From the IMG/VR virus record IMGVR_UViG_3300047497_000044, positions 1 to 23,704 of that record: a stretch of 23,704 nucleotides of DNA; one strand, given 5' to 3'. Below the pieces are notes generated by a model, which ran no database searches, was not told the origin of the DNA, and saw only the letters and a program-made list of their open reading frames with translations. The stretch is from a virus. How positions within the stretch are numbered: position 1 is the stretch's first letter; each line of letters opens with the position of its first letter. The position numbers and the translations under genes were made by a program. Below are positions 5,492 through 23,704 of this stretch, piece after piece.

Positions 5492-8400
5492 TCACGGGGT
5501 GATCTTCACTCCGGTTCCGCTGTTGCCGATGGCGTTGATCCGCGCTTTGGCACCTGCACCCGTCGCAGCTCCTCCACCCCGACCGACCCCTCCCGTCGCC
5601 GAGATGGCGTTGGCCAACTGCTGGATCGCGTTGATGATGCTCTGCTGCACATTCAGGTGCGCGGTGAACATCGCCTTGTACCCGTCGGTGTCGGTCCACC
5701 ACTTCGGGTAGTTGATCGCATCAACCTCCGACGAATTGACCAACCCTGGCGTCGGCGGCGGCTGGTTCGGGTTCGGCGTCGTCCCTTCGGTCCCCTTGGC
5801 GGCTTCCGCCGCTGCCTGCGCTGCGGCCGTTCGCTTGGCAGCGAGGTTCTCGAACGCCACCACGACCGACGCGAGCTGCTTGGCGACATCCGCCACCTGG
5901 TCCTGAATCGCCTGGGCGGCGACCGACGTCATGTCGATCAGGTCGTTGAACAGCTTGTTGAACAGCTTGTGCAGGAAGTCCGACAGCTTCACGAACTGGA
6001 CTTCCCAGTCCTTGATCATGATGCCGATGCTCTCGCTCGCCTTCTTGAACGCCTTGATGAATCCGCCAGAGATGGCGTTGCCGACGATGTCGGTGATCTT
6101 CTCGAAGATCGTGTTGAAGAAGTCGAAGACTCCGGTGACGATGCCCTTGATCTTGTCGAACCCCTGCTTGAACATCTCGGGGATGGTCGAGTGGCCGAAC
6201 AGCTTGTCGACCTTGTCCTCGATCCAGTCGAAGAACCCCGCGAAGAAGTCCTTCACGTCCTTCCACGCCTTCGTGACCTTGTCCGAGGCGTCCTTGATGT
6301 AGCCCCACACCTTGTCGAACAGGTCCCCGAAGAACTTGGCGACCGGGTCCCAGATCGGCTTGATGTACTTCGTCCAGACGTCCATCACGTAGTTCATGAT
6401 GGTCGTCCACACCGGCTCGAAGATGTTCGTCCACAGCCACGAGATGGTGTCGGCGATCATGCCGACGACCCACTTGATCGTGCCCCAGAGGATCTTCACG
6501 AAGATCTTGACGATGCGGTAGATGATGTAGCCGATGGTCTCCAGCGCCGCCCAGATCGGCTTGATGACCACGCAAATCGCCTCGAACACGAACTTCGCGA
6601 TGTTCCACAGCACTTCGAGCGACTTGACGATCACCTTTCCGACGAAGTCGTTGACCTTGATCAGGAACTTGATCACCGGCCGGACCGCCGCGACAATCTT
6701 CCCGAACGTCGTGTCTCCGGCATCGCCTGCGTCGTTGACGCTCTTCGTGACGTTGTCGATCCAGTCCTTGATGTCCTGCCAGTACTTCAGGATCGCGCCC
6801 AGCGGGTTCATCAGAACGCCGAGCACGGTGGACAGCGTGTCGTAGAACGTGTCGAACCCCTTCTTCAGGGCATCGAAGAAGTCCTTGAACTGCGGGAACG
6901 CCTCGCCGAGGGCGTCGAGAACGCCGTCCACGATCCCCTTCGGAATCGACAGGATGATGTCGAGCAGGCTCTGCATCGCGTCGTACACCGCGATGGACAG
7001 CTTCGGCAGCCACTCGGTGATGAGCTTCGGTCCCTGGTCGAAGAGCCACTTGATCCCATCGACGACGGCCTTCGTCAGGAACTTCATGATGTCGTGGGCG
7101 CCGTCGTGCAGGAACCCCTTGATCTTGTCGACGACGTTCTTCGTCTCTTTCGGCCAGGCCATGAAGCCGACCGTCAACGCCGCGACCGCCGCGATGACCG
7201 CCACGATAGCCCCTTCGACCGAGAACAACGCCCCGGCCACCGTCTCCAGGACAGGCCACAGCGTCTCGATGACACCGCCAAGCTTCGTGATGACACCGAA
7301 GATCGGCGTGAACTTGGCCAGCGCGAACGCGCCGGTGATGAGCCCGGCGGACGACTCGAACGTCCCGGCGACCTTCTCCTTGAAGCTCTTGCTCGGGTCC
7401 GACCACAGGCCAGTCAGGTCGTGCCACCAGCCCTTGAAGTACTCAACCAGCTTGTCCTTCACGAACTTGAAGGCCGTCTTGATGATCGAGTGAAGCGCGT
7501 CCCCGATCTTCGCAGCAGTCGAGGCACCTTCCTTCGACTTCGGGTCGATTCCCGAGATGAGCCCGTGCAGGAAGTCCTTGGCGACCCTCTTCAGGATGGC
7601 CATGCCCTCCTTCGCCTTGGCCGACACCTGCTTCCAGATTCCCTGCCAGTCGACCTTCTTGGCCTCCGCAGCGACAGTCTTGAAGATCCCCTTCAACGCC
7701 GTCACGCCTTGCTTGACGAGCGCCGGGACCTTCTTGAACAGACCTCGGATGTCTTCTCCGATCTGGTCGATGGCCTGCTGCGTCGTCTTCCCCTTCAGGC
7801 GCAGGTCTGCGAAGCGCGCCCCGAGGGCTGTGATGGCCATCGTCGCCAACCCGATGGGGCTCACCAGGTGCTTGAAGCGGAACCCCATGGCTCCCAGGGC
7901 TCCGATCATCGGAGTCGCGCGCTCGACGATGGTGCCGAAGACCGCCGCCATCGGCCGCAGCGTTTGCGGCAGCAGCGCCTTGGCACCGATGGCGTCGATG
8001 TCCGCCATCTTCTCGACGAGCTTGCCCATCGGGCCGCCCTTCTTCACCAGGCCCTGGAGCGTCTGCGTGAGCTTGCCGAACTCCTTCTGCGAGTCGGCCA
8101 CGAAGTGCTCTCGTGCATGACCCAGGGCGCGGAAGCTGGCAATCGCCGAGTCCTTCGCCATGTCGTACGCCTCTTGAAGCGTACGGCCCGTCGAGAACCC
8201 CTCCTTGGCGATCTGACCCAGGTCCTTCGTCGCGTGGCGCGTGTCCGCCATCGTCTTGAGCATCGCGTCGTCGGCGTTCGAGAACATGTTCACGAGGTCG
8301 GCGGTCATCTGCTCGCCGAGCACACCGCGCAGGCGCCCAGCCAGGAAGCCCATCGACTGGCTGACGTTCTTCCCCGACTTCTTCGCCGCGATCACCATCT

Positions 8401-9670
8401 TCGCGATGCCGGTGACCAAGCCCTGCGGCCCCTTGCGCATCAACGAGAAGGCGTCCTGCACGTCACCCGTCGAGATCGCCAAGTTCTCGGTGAAGGCGCC
8501 GAGTTCGTCGGACGTCCCCGAGAACATGTTCTGCATGTTCTCCTGCTCACCGACGAGCGTGTCGGCGAGCTTCATCGCGATCTCTTTCGCCTGCTCCTGC
8601 GAGTGCCCCATCTTCCCGAGACCGGCAGCAACGGCCGCCGTCTGCGCCGCGAAGTCCGCAAGCTGATCGGGCTTCATCGCCTTGCCCATCGAGGCGGCGT
8701 GGCGAGACAGCAGGTCCATCATCCCTGGCAGGTCCGCCAGGGCTCCACCCACGTTTCCAGTCGCCTGCCCGAACGACACGAAGCTGCTCACAACTTGGCT
8801 GATGTCCTTGTCAGCGAAGTGGAACTGCTTCCGCATCTTCTCCATCGACTTGCCGAACTCCTTGGCGTTCACCCCCGTCACCTCGGAGAGCTTCGCCAAG
8901 TCCTCGGCCGACTTGATCCCGACCGCACGCAGCGACTCCATCGAGTGCTGCCAGGCGTAGGTCGCGTCCGCCGCGGCGTTCACGTCGATGTTCAGGCCGA
9001 GAGCCATGCCGCTCACCTTGCTGGTGAACTGCACAGCGTCCTTGCCCATCAAGCCCATGTTCACGGCCGCCGCTCGGGCGGTCTTCGCCATCTGCGCGCC
9101 CTGTGCCTCCAGGCTCGTCGTCAGCTCCCCACCCTGCGTCGCGATCCCGTGAATGTGCTCGGCGATGGCGTTCAGCTTGTCGAGCGCGACGGACTGGATG
9201 AACGTCTGAAGCCGGTTCTGCTTCAGGACGTCGTTGAAGACCTGCATCGAGTCCTTCATCTTCTTCAGGATCTCGACGATCTTCTTTCCACCTCCTTCGA
9301 CCTCTCCGGCTCCTTTGCTCTTGAACCGTTTCGCGATGGCGATGAACGGCACGCCTAGGGTACTGAGCCCCTTCTTCGCAAGATCGGCGAGCTTCGCCTT
9401 CAGCGTGTCGAACTTGTTGAACGCCGGCTTGAGCGCGTCACCGACGTGGCGGAACTGCTCTCCGATCTTCCGCTTGAACCGGTCCAGCGGGTCCGCCAGG
9501 TGCTCCAGCTTCTGCCCCAGGGTGTCGAAGGGCGCCATCACCTTCGACCCCAGGCCCCCCATCGCGTCCGTCAGGCGAGAGAACCCCTTCGAGATCTTGT
9601 CCTGGAGCTTCTCCAGGCCGAGATCCTTGGCTCCGAACGAGAAACCGAGACCGAGGAAGTTGAGGGCCAT
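5492..9670 (-). CDS. Tail tape measure protein
   Basis: At 1392 aa this is the longest gene in the window, and it directly follows the tail assembly chaperone, the canonical place for the tape measure. It is largely helical, with many charged amphipathic stretches (residues 1-700). A strongly hydrophobic zone lies around 770-845, including AIVAVIAAVAALTVGFMAW, then a Trp/Ile-rich zone around 990-1130 with repeated IKPIW motifs (about 1035 and 1102). The C-terminus is a Pro-rich linker followed by a Gly/Ala-rich end. The hydrophobic zones fit the known role of tape measure ends in membrane entry. No lysozyme, peptidase or other enzyme motif was seen. From the general rule of about 0.15 nm per residue, a tail near 200 nm is inferred. 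The ATG at 9670 is preceded by AAGGTG and by a 14-bp palindrome. Confidence 0.92.
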   Translation of the reverse strand: MALNFLGLGFSFGAKDLGLEKLQDKISKGFSRLTDAMGGLGSKVMAPFDTLGQKLEHLADPLDRFKRKIGEQFRHVGDALKPAFNKFDTLKAKLADLAKKGLSTLGVPFIAIAKRFKSKGAGEVEGGGKKIVEILKKMKDSMQVFNDVLKQNRLQTFIQSVALDKLNAIAEHIHGIATQGGELTTSLEAQGAQMAKTARAAAVNMGLMGKDAVQFTSKVSGMALGLNIDVNAAADATYAWQHSMESLRAVGIKSAEDLAKLSEVTGVNAKEFGKSMEKMRKQFHFADKDISQVVSSFVSFGQATGNVGGALADLPGMMDLLSRHAASMGKAMKPDQLADFAAQTAAVAAGLGKMGHSQEQAKEIAMKLADTLVGEQENMQNMFSGTSDELGAFTENLAISTGDVQDAFSLMRKGPQGLVTGIAKMVIAAKKSGKNVSQSMGFLAGRLRGVLGEQMTADLVNMFSNADDAMLKTMADTRHATKDLGQIAKEGFSTGRTLQEAYDMAKDSAIASFRALGHAREHFVADSQKEFGKLTQTLQGLVKKGGPMGKLVEKMADIDAIGAKALLPQTLRPMAAVFGTIVERATPMIGALGAMGFRFKHLVSPIGLATMAITALGARFADLRLKGKTTQQAIDQIGEDIRGLFKKVPALVKQGVTALKGIFKTVAAEAKKVDWQGIWKQVSAKAKEGMAILKRVAKDFLHGLISGIDPKSKEGASTAAKIGDALHSIIKTAFKFVKDKLVEYFKGWWHDLTGLWSDPSKSFKEKVAGTFESSAGLITGAFALAKFTPIFGVITKLGGVIETLWPVLETVAGALFSVEGAIVAVIAAVAALTVGFMAWPKETKNVVDKIKGFLHDGAHDIMKFLTKAVVDGIKWLFDQGPKLITEWLPKLSIAVYDAMQSLLDIILSIPKGIVDGVLDALGEAFPQFKDFFDALKKGFDTFYDTLSTVLGVLMNPLGAILKYWQDIKDWIDNVTKSVNDAGDAGDTTFGKIVAAVRPVIKFLIKVNDFVGKVIVKSLEVLWNIAKFVFEAICVVIKPIWAALETIGYIIYRIVKIFVKILWGTIKWVVGMIADTISWLWTNIFEPVWTTIMNYVMDVWTKYIKPIWDPVAKFFGDLFDKVWGYIKDASDKVTKAWKDVKDFFAGFFDWIEDKVDKLFGHSTIPEMFKQGFDKIKGIVTGVFDFFNTIFEKITDIVGNAISGGFIKAFKKASESIGIMIKDWEVQFVKLSDFLHKLFNKLFNDLIDMTSVAAQAIQDQVADVAKQLASVVVAFENLAAKRTAAAQAAAEAAKGTEGTTPNPNQPPPTPGLVNSSEVDAINYPKWWTDTDGYKAMFTAHLNVQQSIINAIQQLANAISATGGVGRGGGAATGAGAKARINAIGNSGTGVKITP

Positions 9671-9683
9671 CTACACCTTGTTG

Positions 9684-9697
9684 CGAACACGTGTTCG
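9684..9697. promoter_or_regulatory. 14-bp perfect palindrome upstream of the tape measure start
   Basis: The sequence CGAACACGTGTTCG is its own reverse complement. It lies between the stop of the chaperone extension (9698-9700) and the tape measure start (9670), ending 13 nt before the ATG. As RNA it can fold into a CGAAC/GUUCG stem with an ACGU loop. The same palindrome recurs at 22126-22139, and with flanking bases 17 nt are shared. It could be a DNA operator or an mRNA control hairpin. Confidence 0.6.
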
Positions 9698-17994: not shown

Positions 17995-18840
17995 TCAATC
18001 GATCCGGATGCCCAGCTTCTGCTGGAAGTTCTTGAACAGGCGGACGTCGTTCATTCTAACCCGGTGCCGGACCCTCGGGGGCCACTTTCGCCAGCCCTGG
18101 AAGTTGGACCGGGTCATTGCGTACGTCAAGGCGTGGTGCGAACGACGAAACTCCCTGAAGCCGGATCGTAGCAGCTTGCGGATCGCAGGTCGCCAGTGCG
18201 GCTTCGCCTTATCTGTACCAAGGCCGAACTCCAACTTCAAGGCCGACATGACCACGTCGGGGATCTTCTTCAGGCGCCTGGACACCTTCAGCTTGTTCCT
18301 CTTGTTCACCGCCCGGTGACCGATCTTGGACAGCTCCTTGGTGAACGTCCGCAAGATCTTCTTCTTTTGCTTGGTCACCCGGTCGATCGTCGTCTGCGAC
18401 ACCTTCTTGTGCACGATGATGGCGTCAGCCTTCGACGGCTGGAAGGGCATCGTCTCGAAGGTCCACGGGTTGTACTTCTCCAAGAGCGCGACCTCCTTCT
18501 TCGGCCTGCGGCTCTTGCGGCGGGGCTTCACGAAGATCAGCGTCCTCTGGACGTTCAGGCTTCGGACCTTGCGGTGCTTCGGGTCGACGTAGACGGCGAA
18601 CACGTCCGATCCCGGCTCCCCGCCCATCATCATCCCGACGGTGAGCCCCATCCGGTAGGCTCTCCACTCGTCCTTCTTCGGGATCTTGTCGAGCATCTGG
18701 TCGTGCACGTACTTGGCCGCCAAGTACACGATGTAATTGCGCATTGCGCGCGACCGCTCAGGCCACTCCTTGAGCAGCCTCGGCAGGTCCAGGTTGCCCT
18801 TCGCCTGGATCTTCGCCGAGACAGAGACGAGGTGCCCCAT
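17995..18840 (-). CDS. Very basic neck-block protein, possibly a connector or head-tail joining component
   Basis: This 281-aa protein is rich in Lys and Arg, for example KPRRKSRRPKKEV (residues 105-117), TKQKKKILRTF (155-165) and NKRNKLKVSRRLKKIPD (179-195). The N-terminal third is helical (LLKEWPERSRAMRNYIVYLA, KYVHDQMLDKIPKKDEWRAY). A large minor-virion protein with a tail-joining (HK97 gp10-like) N-terminus is one possibility; a DNA-contacting neck protein is another. I see no diagnostic motif. Its ATG overlaps the previous stop by one base (TGATG), so it is coupled to the two-zinc-site protein. Confidence is high that it is a gene and low for the function. Confidence 0.7.
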   Translation of the reverse strand: MGHLVSVSAKIQAKGNLDLPRLLKEWPERSRAMRNYIVYLAAKYVHDQMLDKIPKKDEWRAYRMGLTVGMMMGGEPGSDVFAVYVDPKHRKVRSLNVQRTLIFVKPRRKSRRPKKEVALLEKYNPWTFETMPFQPSKADAIIVHKKVSQTTIDRVTKQKKKILRTFTKELSKIGHRAVNKRNKLKVSRRLKKIPDVVMSALKLEFGLGTDKAKPHWRPAIRKLLRSGFREFRRSHHALTYAMTRSNFQGWRKWPPRVRHRVRMNDVRLFKNFQQKLGIRID

Positions 18841-19322
18841 CAGCTCTTCTTCCCCCGCCGCTCCTGCTCGTCCAGGTACTGCGTCGCGTCCGCGAGCGAA
18901 TCCGCGAACGAAGGCTTGCTGCGAGCCAGCAGCTTCTCCAAGTCGATCTCGCCCTTGCCGTTCACGATGGTCGGCAGGCCCTCGGGGATCTTCATCGCGT
19001 TGGTCGCCCGATGCGTCTTGAGCATCGGCAGGTGCGCCTCGCAGACACCGACGATGCGGAGCTTGCCCTTGGCTCGAACGCCGATCTTCGCCGGACTAGC
19101 GCAGACGAAGCAGAACTTCTCCATCGCCCCGCCCGCCGAGAGCGGTCCCACGTACTCGTGGAAGTCGTCCCCCGCGATGGGCGAGCCACACCCATCGGTC
19201 GCCAAGCACTTGAACCCCGGAACTCCCCGTTCCCGAGCCTCCCAGTACTTCGTGCACGTGGCGCAGACAGCAGAAAGGCCGCTCTTCATCGCGGCCTGGA
19301 CTTCGTTCGGGTCCAGCGGCAT
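18840..19322 (-). CDS. Protein with two putative zinc sites in the neck block
   Basis: This 160-aa protein has two cysteine clusters. The first is C20-x2-C23 with C39 and C45 (DGCG). The second is C71-x2-C74 (CFVC) with C94-x2-H97 (CEAH). Each set has four ligands, so two structural zinc sites are likely. The rest is a helical acidic C-terminus (IDLEKLLARSKPSFADSLAD, DATQYLDEQERRG). I do not know the family. The gene has only a weak GTAGAG before its ATG and overlaps the next gene's start by one base, so it is probably expressed by coupling. Its place between neck genes suggests a virion-assembly or connector role. Confidence 0.7.
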   Translation of the reverse strand: MPLDPNEVQAAMKSGLSAVCATCTKYWEARERGVPGFKCLATDGCGSPIAGDDFHEYVGPLSAGGAMEKFCFVCASPAKIGVRAKGKLRIVGVCEAHLPMLKTHRATNAMKIPEGLPTIVNGKGEIDLEKLLARSKPSFADSLADATQYLDEQERRGKKS

Positions 19323-20230: not shown

Positions 20231-20974
20231 CTATCCTCGCAGGAACGGCATCGGGAAGGCGCTCTCCATGATCTCCTTGTCGAGCGACTCGATCTCCTTC
20301 TCGGCATCGTCGTGAAGACGCTGCCAATCCAGCTCCACCGTGCCCTGCGCACCGGGGAAGCCAGCAGGGTACTTACCACGAATCATGCTCAGATCCTGCT
20401 TCGCACGTGCGAGAGCGAAGCGCTTGAGCATGTCGTGGTCGCGCTCGGGGAGCTGCTCGATCGTGAAGTTGTGCGACTTGTACTCCAGGATCATGTTCCC
20501 GGTGTACCGCGGCACGGGCGACAGGAAGAGCTGGTTGCCTTCCTGCTTCCAGTCCGAGTCGGCCGACAGCACCCGCTTGGCCATCTCGACGAACTGGAGC
20601 GTCTGCGTGAACGTCGAGTAGATGCCGGCCGCGTTCGGCGCCGCGAAGACGTCGTAGGGCACCTTCTCGTCGATGAGCAGGTACGGGCTGAAGATCAGCG
20701 TCAGGTCGGCGTTGTTCTCCGGGAACACGACATCGAGCACCGTGTCGATGTCCGGGTCGAGCGTGTACGCCGGCATCCCCGCCTGAATCGGCTGCGCAAG
20801 CAGCTTCCGAACGCCCTTCTTCGCGGCGAACCAGCGCTTGGCGAAGTCGATGTCGTCCTGGATCATCTCGCACGTCAACTCGACCTTGACGAGGGGCGAA
20901 CCGAGCCTCCGCAAGATCCACTGTTGCAGTTGCTCATTGTCCATCAACTGCGTGGGAGTCGGCGGTGTGGGCAT
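20231..20974 (-). CDS. Neck / head-completion protein, T4 gp13-like (putative)
   Basis: This 247-aa protein begins MPTPPTPTQLMDNEQLQQWI and continues LRRLGSPLVKVELTCEMIQD and DIDFAKRWFAAKKG (to residue 52). The leading helix, RxLGxP and hydrophobic-acidic continuation match my memory of gp13-type neck proteins. Downstream are YTLDPDIDTVLDVVFPE and a beta-rich middle, then a helical C-terminus (HDMLKRFALARAKQDLSMIR, LDWQRLHDDAEKEIESLDKE). The ATG at 20974 is preferred to a GTG two codons earlier because it has AAGGAGG at good spacing and forms TGATG with the upstream 41-aa ORF. Its first 14 residues are identical to that ORF. The neck role is inferred. Confidence 0.7.
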   Translation of the reverse strand: MPTPPTPTQLMDNEQLQQWILRRLGSPLVKVELTCEMIQDDIDFAKRWFAAKKGVRKLLAQPIQAGMPAYTLDPDIDTVLDVVFPENNADLTLIFSPYLLIDEKVPYDVFAAPNAAGIYSTFTQTLQFVEMAKRVLSADSDWKQEGNQLFLSPVPRYTGNMILEYKSHNFTIEQLPERDHDMLKRFALARAKQDLSMIRGKYPAGFPGAQGTVELDWQRLHDDAEKEIESLDKEIMESAFPMPFLRG

Positions 20975-21099
20975 CAGCACGCCTCCTTCAAACGCTGTTC
21001 ACGGGCAGCTTCCGCACGCTTCCGGGTGCGGATGCGGTGGCAGTTCGAGCAGATGACCTCGTTGTCCATCAACTGGGTCGGGGTCGGCGGCGTCGGCAC
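20933..21099 (-). repeat. Direct repeat of 14 codons at the starts of adjacent genes
   Basis: The first 14 codons of the 41-aa ORF (21058-21099) and of the gp13-like gene (20933-20974) encode the same peptide. The stretch CAGTTGATGGACAA is identical in DNA; the upstream Pro/Thr codons differ only at third positions. Both copies carry an AGGAGG-type ribosome binding site. Confidence 0.85.
20974..21099 (-). CDS. 41-aa chimeric microprotein: duplicated neck-protein N-terminus plus HNH-like CxxCH tail
   Basis: I found this short ORF by reading the 128-bp gap between two genes. A GTG at 21099 with TAAGGAGGAGCC upstream opens 41 codons ending in a TGA that overlaps the next ATG (TGATG). Residues 1-14 (MPTPPTPTQLMDNE) are identical to the start of the downstream gp13-like protein, yet six third positions and the start codon differ. 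Residues 15-41 read VICSNCHRIRTRKRAEAARE then QRLKEAC. The ICSNCHRIRT motif is what the C-terminal part of many HNH endonucleases looks like; the catalytic His-Asn half is absent. It could be the remnant of an HNH gene, or a working zinc microprotein that shares a partner-binding peptide with the neck protein. Confidence 0.65.
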   Translation of the reverse strand: MPTPPTPTQLMDNEVICSNCHRIRTRKRAEAAREQRLKEAC

Positions 21100-21108
21100 G
21101 GCTCCTCC

Positions 21109-21507
21109 TTACTGCACCTCGATCTTGAGCCCGAGATTGAGCTGCGTCCCGTCGGAGAGCGTCATCTTCGACATGTACCGCCAGCGCTCCATCGTCCCGC
21201 GCATCACGCGGACGATCTCGGCGGGCGGCACCTCCATGTCCTTGGCGAGGCGCTCGACCATGTCGACCATCTCGCTGGCGTAGCCCGAGTCGTACACGCT
21301 GGTCCCGAGGGCGTGCCCCAGGATGGCGTGCGTCGCCGAGCGAATCTCGTCCTCCCGCGACGGGTCGAGCTGTGCCGGAGCCTGTTCGATCTCGCCTTCG
21401 CCTCCCGGCTGCGGAGACGTGGCCGGCGGTGCCTTCGGAGGCGGTGCCGGCGGAGCTTCTCCCGCCTCCGCCAGTTGCCGGAGTCTTGTTGCGCGTGCCG
21501 GGTTCAT
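21109..21507 (-). CDS. Unknown protein with Pro-rich N-terminus and helical C-terminus
   Basis: This 132-aa protein starts with a basic helix (MNPARATRLRQLAEAGEAPP), followed by an Ala/Pro/Gly linker to about residue 50. A helical domain follows (DEIRSATHAILGHALGTSVY, SEMVDMVERLAKDMEVPPAE, IVRVMRGTMERWRYMSKMTL) and a short beta end (LNLGLKIEVQ). I do not recognise a family. It starts in an ATGA junction with the 51-aa gene upstream and is followed at once by the 41-aa ORF, whose ribosome binding site overlaps its stop. The arrangement suggests co-expression with the neck genes. Confidence 0.65.
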   Translation of the reverse strand: MNPARATRLRQLAEAGEAPPAPPPKAPPATSPQPGGEGEIEQAPAQLDPSREDEIRSATHAILGHALGTSVYDSGYASEMVDMVERLAKDMEVPPAEIVRVMRGTMERWRYMSKMTLSDGTQLNLGLKIEVQ

Positions 21508-21662: not shown

Positions 21663-22103
21663 TCACTCCTTCGGCAGGGGAACGCCCGGCGGGATTTCGA
21701 CGGCGACGGCGCTCTCGTCAGCGCCGGGCAGCTCGATGTCGTCGGGGAACACATCACCAACAGGATACGCCTCTTTCTTCGGTTTGGCAGCGGGTGCCGA
21801 GGGATCGTCGCGCAGCGCCCTCGGCTCGGTCGTGTCCTGGTCGTTCGGCGAGAGTGCGGAGACCTCCTCCTCGACCGGCTTCCCGGTCAGAACCTCGGAC
21901 AGGTTCTGGAGCGCGACGCCAGCCTTGTGCAGCGCCGCCACGGCCTCCTGAATGCTGGTCCTGGCGTCTGCGACCGCCTCCTCCAGCACCGCAGCCCGCT
22001 CCTGCTCGGCGACAGGCCGAGGCGACGACGCAGGACCGTCCTTCACCTCCGACAGCACGCCCTCCAGCTCCTCCATCTCCCTCTGAATCGACTCTAGGCT
22101 CAT
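21663..22103 (-). CDS. Coiled-coil protein downstream of the capsid gene
   Basis: This 146-aa acidic protein opens with a heptad-like helix (MSLESIQREMEELEGVLSEV). After a short Ser/Pro break comes a long Ala-rich helix (AEQERAAVLEEAVADARTSI, QEAVAALHKAGVALQNLSEV). The C-terminus is a Pro/Ala/acidic tail (DDIELPGADESAVAVEIPPG). A scaffold, capsid-accessory or chaperone role is possible, but no family is recognised. It begins in an ATGA junction with the Gly/His-rich gene. The palindrome at 22126-22139 lies 22 nt upstream of its ATG, inside that gene's coding sequence. Confidence 0.65.
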   Translation of the reverse strand: MSLESIQREMEELEGVLSEVKDGPASSPRPVAEQERAAVLEEAVADARTSIQEAVAALHKAGVALQNLSEVLTGKPVEEEVSALSPNDQDTTEPRALRDDPSAPAAKPKKEAYPVGDVFPDDIELPGADESAVAVEIPPGVPLPKE

Positions 22104-22447
22104 CGGCTCCTCCAGCTCTCATCAACGAACACGTGTTCGCCCTCGTGACCTGTCACCTGCATGCACGTCCCGCCGACGGTCGGCTTCTGGCCGGGCGGGC
22201 ACTTCGGGTGACCCGAGACGGCTACGCCGCCCGCCTCCTCCACCTTCTTGCACGTCCCGTCAGCCATCGTCTCGTACCCCGGCGGACACCCACCGTACCA
22301 CCAGCCAGGGTACGGGCCTACCCCGACGATCCCTCCCGGATGGCGTCCGAAGCCGTGCCCGCCCCCGTGACCGCCTCCACCATGGCCGCCGCCCCCGCCG
22401 AACTCGACGAGGGCCTTCAGCTCCATGATCTTGTGTCGCAAGGCCAT
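22100..22447 (-). CDS. Gly/His-rich small protein with two Cys-loop repeats
   Basis: This 115-aa protein has a short helix (MALRHKIMELKALVEF), a Gly/His tract (residues 17-39, GGGGGHGGGGHGGGHG), a GPYPGWWYGG turn, and two copies of a Cys loop. These are CPPGYETMADGTC (C54-C66) and CPPGQKPTVGGTC (C83-C95), each with 11 residues between the cysteines. The His tract could bind metal, and the Cys pairs could be disulfide or metal loops. The ATG has TGGAGA 5 nt upstream. The gene begins 19 nt past the hairpin that follows the capsid gene, so it would be expressed by read-through or from a promoter I cannot identify. The family is unknown; a surface-exposed or decoration role is conceivable. Confidence 0.65.
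   Translation of the reverse strand: MALRHKIMELKALVEFGGGGGHGGGGHGGGHGFGRHPGGIVGVGPYPGWWYGGCPPGYETMADGTCKKVEEAGGVAVSGHPKCPPGQKPTVGGTCMQVTGHEGEHVFVDESWRSR
22126..22139. promoter_or_regulatory. Second copy of the 14-bp palindrome CGAACACGTGTTCG
   Basis: This is the same perfect palindrome as at 9684-9697, here inside the last codons of the Gly/His-rich gene and 22 nt before the start of the coiled-coil gene. With flanks, AACGAACACGTGTTCGC (17 nt) is shared by both sites in opposite orientations. Coding constraint alone does not explain the match to an intergenic site. Confidence 0.55.
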
Positions 22448-22519: not shown

Positions 22520-23704
22520 TCAGAGGTTCAGGATGTTGAGCTGGCCGTAGAACTCCGGCCGGAGCAGCTTCTTCGCGTACCTCGTCCTCAGACCCTTGCG
22601 GAAGCTGAAGTCGTTCGGATCGAGGAACGTCGGGGTGACCTGGAGCGGGATGTACGGCGCCCAGACGTACCCGGCGTCGAGGTAGCTCGCGCCCTTCAGC
22701 CCGATGAGCATGAAGTTGCGCGTGAAGAACGGGTCCTCGTACAGCAGCCACTTGTTCTGGAGCGTCCCGAACTTGTAGATGCCGAACTGGCCGTGCTGCG
22801 TGAGCGGGCGCGGCATGTCCGCGGGGCCGTACGGCGAGTCGCCGCCGGACACGTAGATCGGCCGGAAGTCGCCGTGCGTCGTGAGCTGCGCGATGAGCGC
22901 GGAGACCTCGGGCGAGGTCACGATGAAGTTCGCCGGTGCGCGCAGCGTCTTCTTGTGGATGAGGTTCGAGATCGTGCTGATCTGCGTCAGCATCGAGCGC
23001 AGGTAGTCGACCTCGGGGATGCCGGCCGGCGGGATGCGGTCGAACGTGCCGGTGGTGCCCGTCGCGGAGGCGAACAGGTCCTGGATGATCTCGCGGTCGA
23101 TCTCCAGCGCGATCTCCTGGGCGATGGCCGAAACCATCTCCGTCTCGGCGTCCAGGCCGTGGAAGGCGCGGAGGTCTTCCGCCGCCTCTGCGGACCACAG
23201 AGCCTTGAGGCGCCGCGGGATCGCCTCGACGGGGCTCTTCTTCACGTCGAGGTTGATCTGCGGGATCTTCGTGTTCAGCTCGCCGTCGTAGAAGTACAGC
23301 GCCTTGATGGCGTTGCCCGAGGCGGGTGCGGCGGTGAACTTGAAGTTCGTGAGCGCGCCGTTCGAGTAGTTGATCGTGCCGCTCGCGACCGCGCCCGTGA
23401 AGCCGCCGGTCCCGTTGTCCGTGGCGGACTGCACGACCGCGCCGGTGGCCGTGCTGACCTCCTGGATGACGACGGAGAAGCCGCCGGTCGTGTCGAGCGG
23501 ACGCACCGGGTTGAACGCGAACGTCGCCGACAGCGGGTTGCCCGCGCCGCCGAAGTTCACGCCGTCGCCGGTTGCGAGGGGCTCGCCGTTGATGAACTCC
23601 GACGAGTAGTCCTTGTCGAAGTCGCGGGGGAAGACGTTGCCCTGCGTCGTGATCCCCTTCGTCGTCCCGTAGATGTAGTCCAGGTAGAAGACTGCACCGA
23701 TCGG
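22520..23704 (-). CDS. 23: Major capsid protein, gp23-like (5' end beyond the right edge)
   Basis: The frame is open from the stop at 22520 to the right edge, so the N-terminus is missing. An internal GTG at 23560 is not the start, because the upstream codons read PIGAVFYLDYIYG and FPRDFDKDYSSEFINGEP, which fits the N-terminal part of gp23-type capsid proteins. Further landmarks, counted from that GTG, are SAIAQEIALEIDREIIQDLF (144-163), TLRAPANFIVTSPEVSALIA (205-224), WLLYEDPF (271-278), IGLKGASYLDAGYVWAPYIP (286-305) and FSFRKGLRTRYAKKL (318-332). A beta-module insertion lies at about 46-92. The protein forms the icosahedral shell, probably after N-terminal processing by a protease not encoded in this window. 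Confidence 0.92.
   Translation of the reverse strand, partial: PIGAVFYLDYIYGTTKGITTQGNVFPRDFDKDYSSEFINGEPLATGDGVNFGGAGNPLSATFAFNPVRPLDTTGGFSVVIQEVSTATGAVVQSATDNGTGGFTGAVASGTINYSNGALTNFKFTAAPASGNAIKALYFYDGELNTKIPQINLDVKKSPVEAIPRRLKALWSAEAAEDLRAFHGLDAETEMVSAIAQEIALEIDREIIQDLFASATGTTGTFDRIPPAGIPEVDYLRSMLTQISTISNLIHKKTLRAPANFIVTSPEVSALIAQLTTHGDFRPIYVSGGDSPYGPADMPRPLTQHGQFGIYKFGTLQNKWLLYEDPFFTRNFMLIGLKGASYLDAGYVWAPYIPLQVTPTFLDPNDFSFRKGLRTRYAKKLLRPEFYGQLNILNL
23285..23428 (-). repeat. Beta-module insertion in the capsid protein, related to the sheath modules
   Basis: The capsid segment ATDNGTGGFTG, then GTINYSNGALTNFKFTAAPA and SGNAIKALYFYD, has the same order as the sheath module near 14828-15007 (TITDNGSGTLVG, AIDYASGVVNFKTV, FVTVAYYSQ). 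The motifs align as DNG[TS]G, [IV]xY[AS]xG, NFK and a final Tyr strand. The match is by eye and only moderate in length. Confidence 0.5.

Follow-up and report, generated by a model that had tools for sequence, protein, structure and literature searches.

A probable decayed HNH homing element at the start of a phage neck gene, and the same gene-end arrangement at other phage genes

The window analyzed here, a single viral metagenomic record of 23,704 bases (IMGVR_UViG_3300047497_000044), very probably holds the remains of a decayed, free-standing HNH homing element, inserted in the 5′ end of the essential neck gene together with a complete, differently coded replacement for that end. The locus retains an orphan stump of the neck gene, the C-terminal remnant of an HNH gene, and a recoded duplicate of the stump with which the present neck gene begins.

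The neck gene (positions 20231–20974, minus strand; 247 aa, N-terminus MPTPPTPTQLMDNE) is assigned to the gp13 or head–tail adaptor genes by a match to the PHROG profile phrog_211, 'head-tail adaptor Ad2' (E = 2.6e-12), and by tblastn, in which its product matches the neck proteins of cultured T4-like phages. It also lies downstream of gp23, the window gene at 22520–23560 matching the Pfam Gp23 capsid family (E = 5e-56). Adjoining its start is a 41-codon ORF (21099–20974, minus strand; 41 aa, VPTPPTPTQLMDNE-VICSNCHRIRTRKRAEAAREQRLKEAC), preceded in turn by a 132-aa gene (21109–21507, minus strand) for which profile searches gave no family match at curated cut-offs. The ORF and the neck gene each have a Shine-Dalgarno sequence AAGGAGG on the minus strand, the former at 21104–21110, overlapping the stop of the upstream gene, and the latter at 20982–20988, within the HNH remnant, whose stop overlaps the neck ATG (TGATG). 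Two other ORFs of the window, likewise without a family match, are a 115-aa ORF with a Gly/His-rich stretch, GGGGGHGGGGHGGGHGFGRHPGG (22100–22447, minus strand), and a 160-aa Cys-rich ORF with several CxxC pairs (18840–19322, minus strand).

The first 14 residues are common to the ORF and the neck protein. In the ORF they are encoded by the stump (21058–21099, minus strand), that is, GTG and 13 further codons specifying PTPPTPTQLMDNE, and in the neck gene by its first 14 codons (20933–20974, minus strand), which, by analogy with the loci L073 and L353 described below and given the silent differences from the stump, are putatively element-borne and recoded. Codon comparison bears out the original prediction that the two copies differ at six third positions and at the start codon, all silently: the pairs, ORF versus neck, are CCG/CCC, ACG/ACA, ACC/ACT, CCG/CCC, ACC/ACG, and AAC/AAT, with GTG against ATG as start. 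The copies thus differ at 7 of 42 bases and form a direct DNA repeat of 41 nt with 85% identity that ends abruptly at codon 14, past which 5 of 24 bases match, a chance level. The probability that six of six random single changes would all be silent is 1.5e-4 to 5e-4, the range being set by transition bias. The imported tract in the neck gene may extend past codon 14.

The remainder of the ORF, VICSNCHRIRTRKRAEAAREQRLKEAC and a stop (20974–21057, minus strand), matches two HNH profiles, phrog_2255 (E = 1.3e-4, covering profile positions 157–181 of 211) and phrog_3106 (E = 9e-4, positions 210–235 of 252), whereas a Pfam search of the 41-aa micro-ORF gave no match. The earlier description of a C-terminal HNH half without its catalytic half is thereby confirmed: the ORF lacks the catalytic DxDH half, which is present as a DFDH motif in the HNH genes of L073, L169, and L353, and matches only the C-terminal part of each profile, so that it is a remnant and no enzyme. 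Its two families are those of the intact HNH gene found at the same place in L073.

Related loci were collected by a capsid-protein scan (77 loci) and a neck-profile scan (80 more, partly overlapping). Among them, the viral contig L073 carries the intact version: an HNH gene with two HNH units (8760–9686; phrog_3106, 5e-41; phrog_2255, 7e-36) directly upstream of the neck gene, with an orphan neck start, MSCRLMTEPQLKAW (8572–8606), upstream of the HNH gene. The working neck gene starts at 9667 with MPKLMNESELRHWILRRL, its GTG falling within the 3′ end of the HNH gene, and its first ~18 codons are recoded. The suggestion that the window ORF is the scar of an HNH element is supported by this locus, where a comparison with related phages, as had been proposed, finds an intact HNH gene of the same families at this exact place and in the same layout of stump and new start. 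The contig L051, a close relative lacking the insert, provides the empty site. In blastn, L073 7850–8606 corresponds to L051 7086–7845 and L073 9703–11772 to L051 7850–9924, placing an insert of ~1.1 kb between two near-neighbor bases within the L051 neck gene; similarity to L051 thus covers the stump side and the body of the neck gene in L073 but skips the new 5′ end. Accordingly, codon differences between the two amount to 11 of 15 in the first codons after LM and to 6 in the next 85, and the four largest 5′-end excesses among 26 close neck-gene pairs all involve L073. The GC3 of the new 5′ end (0.56) resembles that of the HNH gene (0.54), whereas the remainder of the neck gene has a GC3 of 0.75. 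In the L073/L051 subfamily about 70–115 nt at the neck start are shared with the upstream gene, so that an insertion there hits both genes. L073 is rich in homing genes, having two double-HNH genes and, at 7140–8000 just past gp23, a LAGLIDADG-type endonuclease gene that is mostly absent from L051.

When the 3 kb preceding each of 129 neck genes (63 distinct N-termini) were scanned position-specifically for stumps, L073 was the only further case, so that every neck 5′ duplicate seen has HNH sequence between its copies. Because a close relative of the window was not found in the collections, either by a single-protein search of viral contigs with its neck gene or by the neck-profile scan of genome contigs, we infer from context, composition, and analogy that its stump is the native end and its neck start the imported one. 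The stump starts directly 3′ of the upstream gene with its own Shine-Dalgarno sequence, which is the setting of native neck starts in relatives, and GC3 (1.0 in the stump, 0.79 in the neck 5′ end) leans weakly the expected way. The stump comprises 14 codons in the window and ~12–18 in L073, and the insertion points therefore need not be identical.

The same layout occurs at two other genes. For about 110 HNH genes, the sequence on one side was compared with that on the other, in several forms since a first duplication test with 40-aa peptides proved insensitive (L073 itself scored only z 1.8), and three further cases emerged, L353, L169, and L320, in which, as in L073, all HNH proteins match both phrog_3106 and phrog_2255. 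In L353 (2183–3275), an RNA-ligase stump, MEFLEFPKIARLSRECVITEK, is followed by an HNH gene and then by the working gene, MEFQEFPKIARLSREAIITEK-IDGTNAQ. The ligase is interrupted exactly at its catalytic KxDG motif, and the HNH gene carries a recoded gene start of 21 codons; the duplicated segment corresponds to the first 63 nt of the uninterrupted RNA-ligase gene in the relative L404, which together with L397 and L398 represents the empty site. The stump, a short dead-end ORF, encodes exactly the L404 peptide. Of the 21 codons in the working 5′ end, 13 differ silently from L404 and 3 carry replacements, and the GC3 values are 0.33 for this new end, 0.48 for the HNH gene, and 0.78 for the ligase body. 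L169 (2915–4558) presents the 3′-end version: next to a UvsX/RecA-like gene, an HNH gene carries a native UvsX C-terminal stump fused to its own C-terminus, so that its product finishes with a second UvsX C-terminus. Compared with the working end, this stump is nearer to 46 of 58 relatives, the working copy being nearer to 11, and the arrangement is absent from the other 79 relatives. L320 (1692–2749) has the 3′ end of an RNA ligase followed by an HNH gene with a short stump fused to its C-terminus, ENDEIHKWE, which repeats the ligase C-terminus EGDELHKWQ.

In the window, L073, L353, and L169, the end left as a stump lies on the far side of the endonuclease gene, and it is the stump, more than the working copy, that resembles the empty-site relative in L073 (L051) and L353 (L404, L397, L398), and likewise most relatives in L169. 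Outside the window, wherever an empty site is available for comparison, the stump is the native gene end and the working copy a diverged import brought in by the element. Most HNH genes of the phrog_3106/phrog_2255 families lie cleanly between genes or tRNAs without end duplication, and none was found at 18 cultured-phage loci of the same HNH family. Three candidates were rejected: the double-HNH genes of L063 and L217 sit at gene boundaries and lack an end duplication, and in L166, which scored as a 5′ duplication (z 17–18), one copy is the C-terminus of an intact gene, the other is the N-terminus of a different gene, and a third gene separates them. The L063 gene (10530–11276) lies at the stop codon of the gene following the neck region, and the relative L029 has no HNH gene there, as in a clean insertion. 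HNH genes of the same family also occur between tRNA genes, namely in L345 (2201–2799) and L490 (1178–1805), where the two tRNA genes are for the same amino acid: tRNA-Gln genes with different anticodons that agree at 54 of 76 bases in L345, and Trp tRNA genes with the same anticodon in phage Sham. The pairs are possibly a target and a replacement tRNA.

The most economical reading of these loci is a homing element that invades a conserved gene end and supplies its own version of it; the arrangement would then arise as follows. In phages that lack the element, the endonuclease would cut the neck gene within a conserved coding stretch close to its start, and repair would bring in the HNH gene along with the donor's own neck 5′ end. 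This donor end would have its own ribosome-binding site, begin at or within the HNH 3′ end, and escape cutting through its recoded sequence; the old neck 5′ end would stay upstream as an orphan stump. In the window, a later deletion would have left only the last 27 codons of the HNH gene, fused in frame with the stump. The two neck ends would have diverged in separate phage lineages under selection on the neck protein before homing juxtaposed them. Cutting, homing, self-protection by recoding, deletion, and translation are all predicted here from sequence; given its good Shine-Dalgarno sequence, translation of the 41-codon ORF probably persists and may be coupled to that of the neck gene through the TGATG overlap.

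Other explanations have to be weighed against this one. The copies adjoin, and illegitimate recombination can yield gene-end duplications, and one might therefore consider that the neck 5′ end was simply duplicated in tandem, that an HNH fragment was captured independently afterwards, and that the copies drifted silently; this is unlikely, since across ~60 distinct neck loci the 5′ duplicate occurs only with HNH sequence between the copies, and since, where an empty-site relative is available, the working copy is too diverged to stem from a recent duplication, unlike the remainder of the gene. An assembly artefact in the form of a chimeric contig, which the origin of the window in one metagenomic record of 23,704 bases could suggest and which had been named as a possible source of the two copies, is scarcely credible and is set aside, given the 7 differences in 42 bases between the copies and the presence of the same layout at the same locus in an independent contig, L073.

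The original prediction also read the silent differences as a sign that the peptide is kept in both copies, and offered the ORF as a zinc microprotein that docks at the neck protein or competes with it through the shared peptide. The open frame, the good Shine-Dalgarno sequence, the CxxCH motif, and the silent-only differences would suit a maintained product of this kind; against it, such an ORF is absent from all of the other ~60 distinct neck loci scanned, the CxxCH is a single half-site, the N-terminal peptide is unconserved in the neck family, and a silent-rich difference is found also in L353, whose stump is a dead end, all of which makes the microprotein very improbable. Nor is the idea of a peptide kept in both copies supported, a silent-rich difference being expected, as in L353, from divergence before the copies met. 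Most likely, the silent-only differences reflect purifying selection in two lineages before their meeting, and as such prior divergence accounts for them, selection on the 41-aa product is unneeded. A more plausible, though still doubtful, proposal is that the remnant ORF has taken on the role of a translated leader, linked to the neck gene by TGATG, and that its frame has stayed open for this reason. The stop/start overlap and the position of the neck Shine-Dalgarno sequence within the ORF speak for such a leader, which would be compatible with the homing-element explanation as a later step; however, one third of deletions are in frame by chance, and close relatives that could show conservation were not found.

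On the homing-element explanation, it is reasonably likely that phages host a recurrent class of HNH elements acting as natural home-and-rescue drives, which would enter the conserved 5′ or 3′ ends of essential genes (neck, RNA ligase, UvsX) with a recoded end that keeps the protein working and confers immunity to their own nuclease. Such a class would account for puzzling viral micro-ORFs and for silent-only partial gene duplications, and would show how essential phage genes can acquire mosaic 5′ and 3′ ends. Cluster J mycobacteriophages, whose unexplained lysA 5′ ends lie next to HNH genes, may be an example (PMC3706429). The open-licence literature searched contained no account of phage homing elements replacing gene ends, although reports elsewhere are possible; the present cases would extend a process described in that literature for fungal mitochondria to phages and to gene starts.

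The closest known counterparts are the mobile ORFs (mORFs) of fungal mitochondria, reported for atp6 of Allomyces and for atp6, atp9, cox2, and nad3 of Glomus, where an endonuclease ORF in a conserved gene brings a foreign C-terminal end and the native end becomes a stump, the native and imported ends being 94–100% identical in protein and 64–81% in DNA (PMC3630166). The phage elements share with them the combination of endonuclease, replacement gene end, and native stump, but mORFs are mitochondrial, encode LAGLIDADG or GIY-YIG enzymes, and replace C-terminal ends, whereas those described here are of the HNH type, reside in phages, and replace N-terminal ends as well. The homing genes of T4 are known to act on conserved coding sequence within essential genes, with co-conversion of its flanks (PMC2988022). 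The intronless homing of the seg and mob genes resembles the present case in having free-standing endonuclease genes beside essential genes, flank co-conversion, and a variant neighbor in the donor that resists cutting (PMC2988022); there, however, insertion is between genes and leaves no orphan gene end, while a stump is present here. T4 mobA/gene 60 likewise combines a homing endonuclease in an essential phage gene with linked sequence thought to shield the donor copy (PMC2988022, PMC5009743). Gene 60 is thought to have acquired its protection by another route (PMC5009743), and that gene is split and read by translational bypass, whereas here a gene end is replaced and a single-chain protein retained. 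Engineered home-and-rescue gene drives (PMC7968924) also join an endonuclease to a recoded rescue of its essential target. Those drives are CRISPR constructs in insects, whereas the phage elements would be their natural counterparts, with an activity predicted from sequence and open to in vitro tests.
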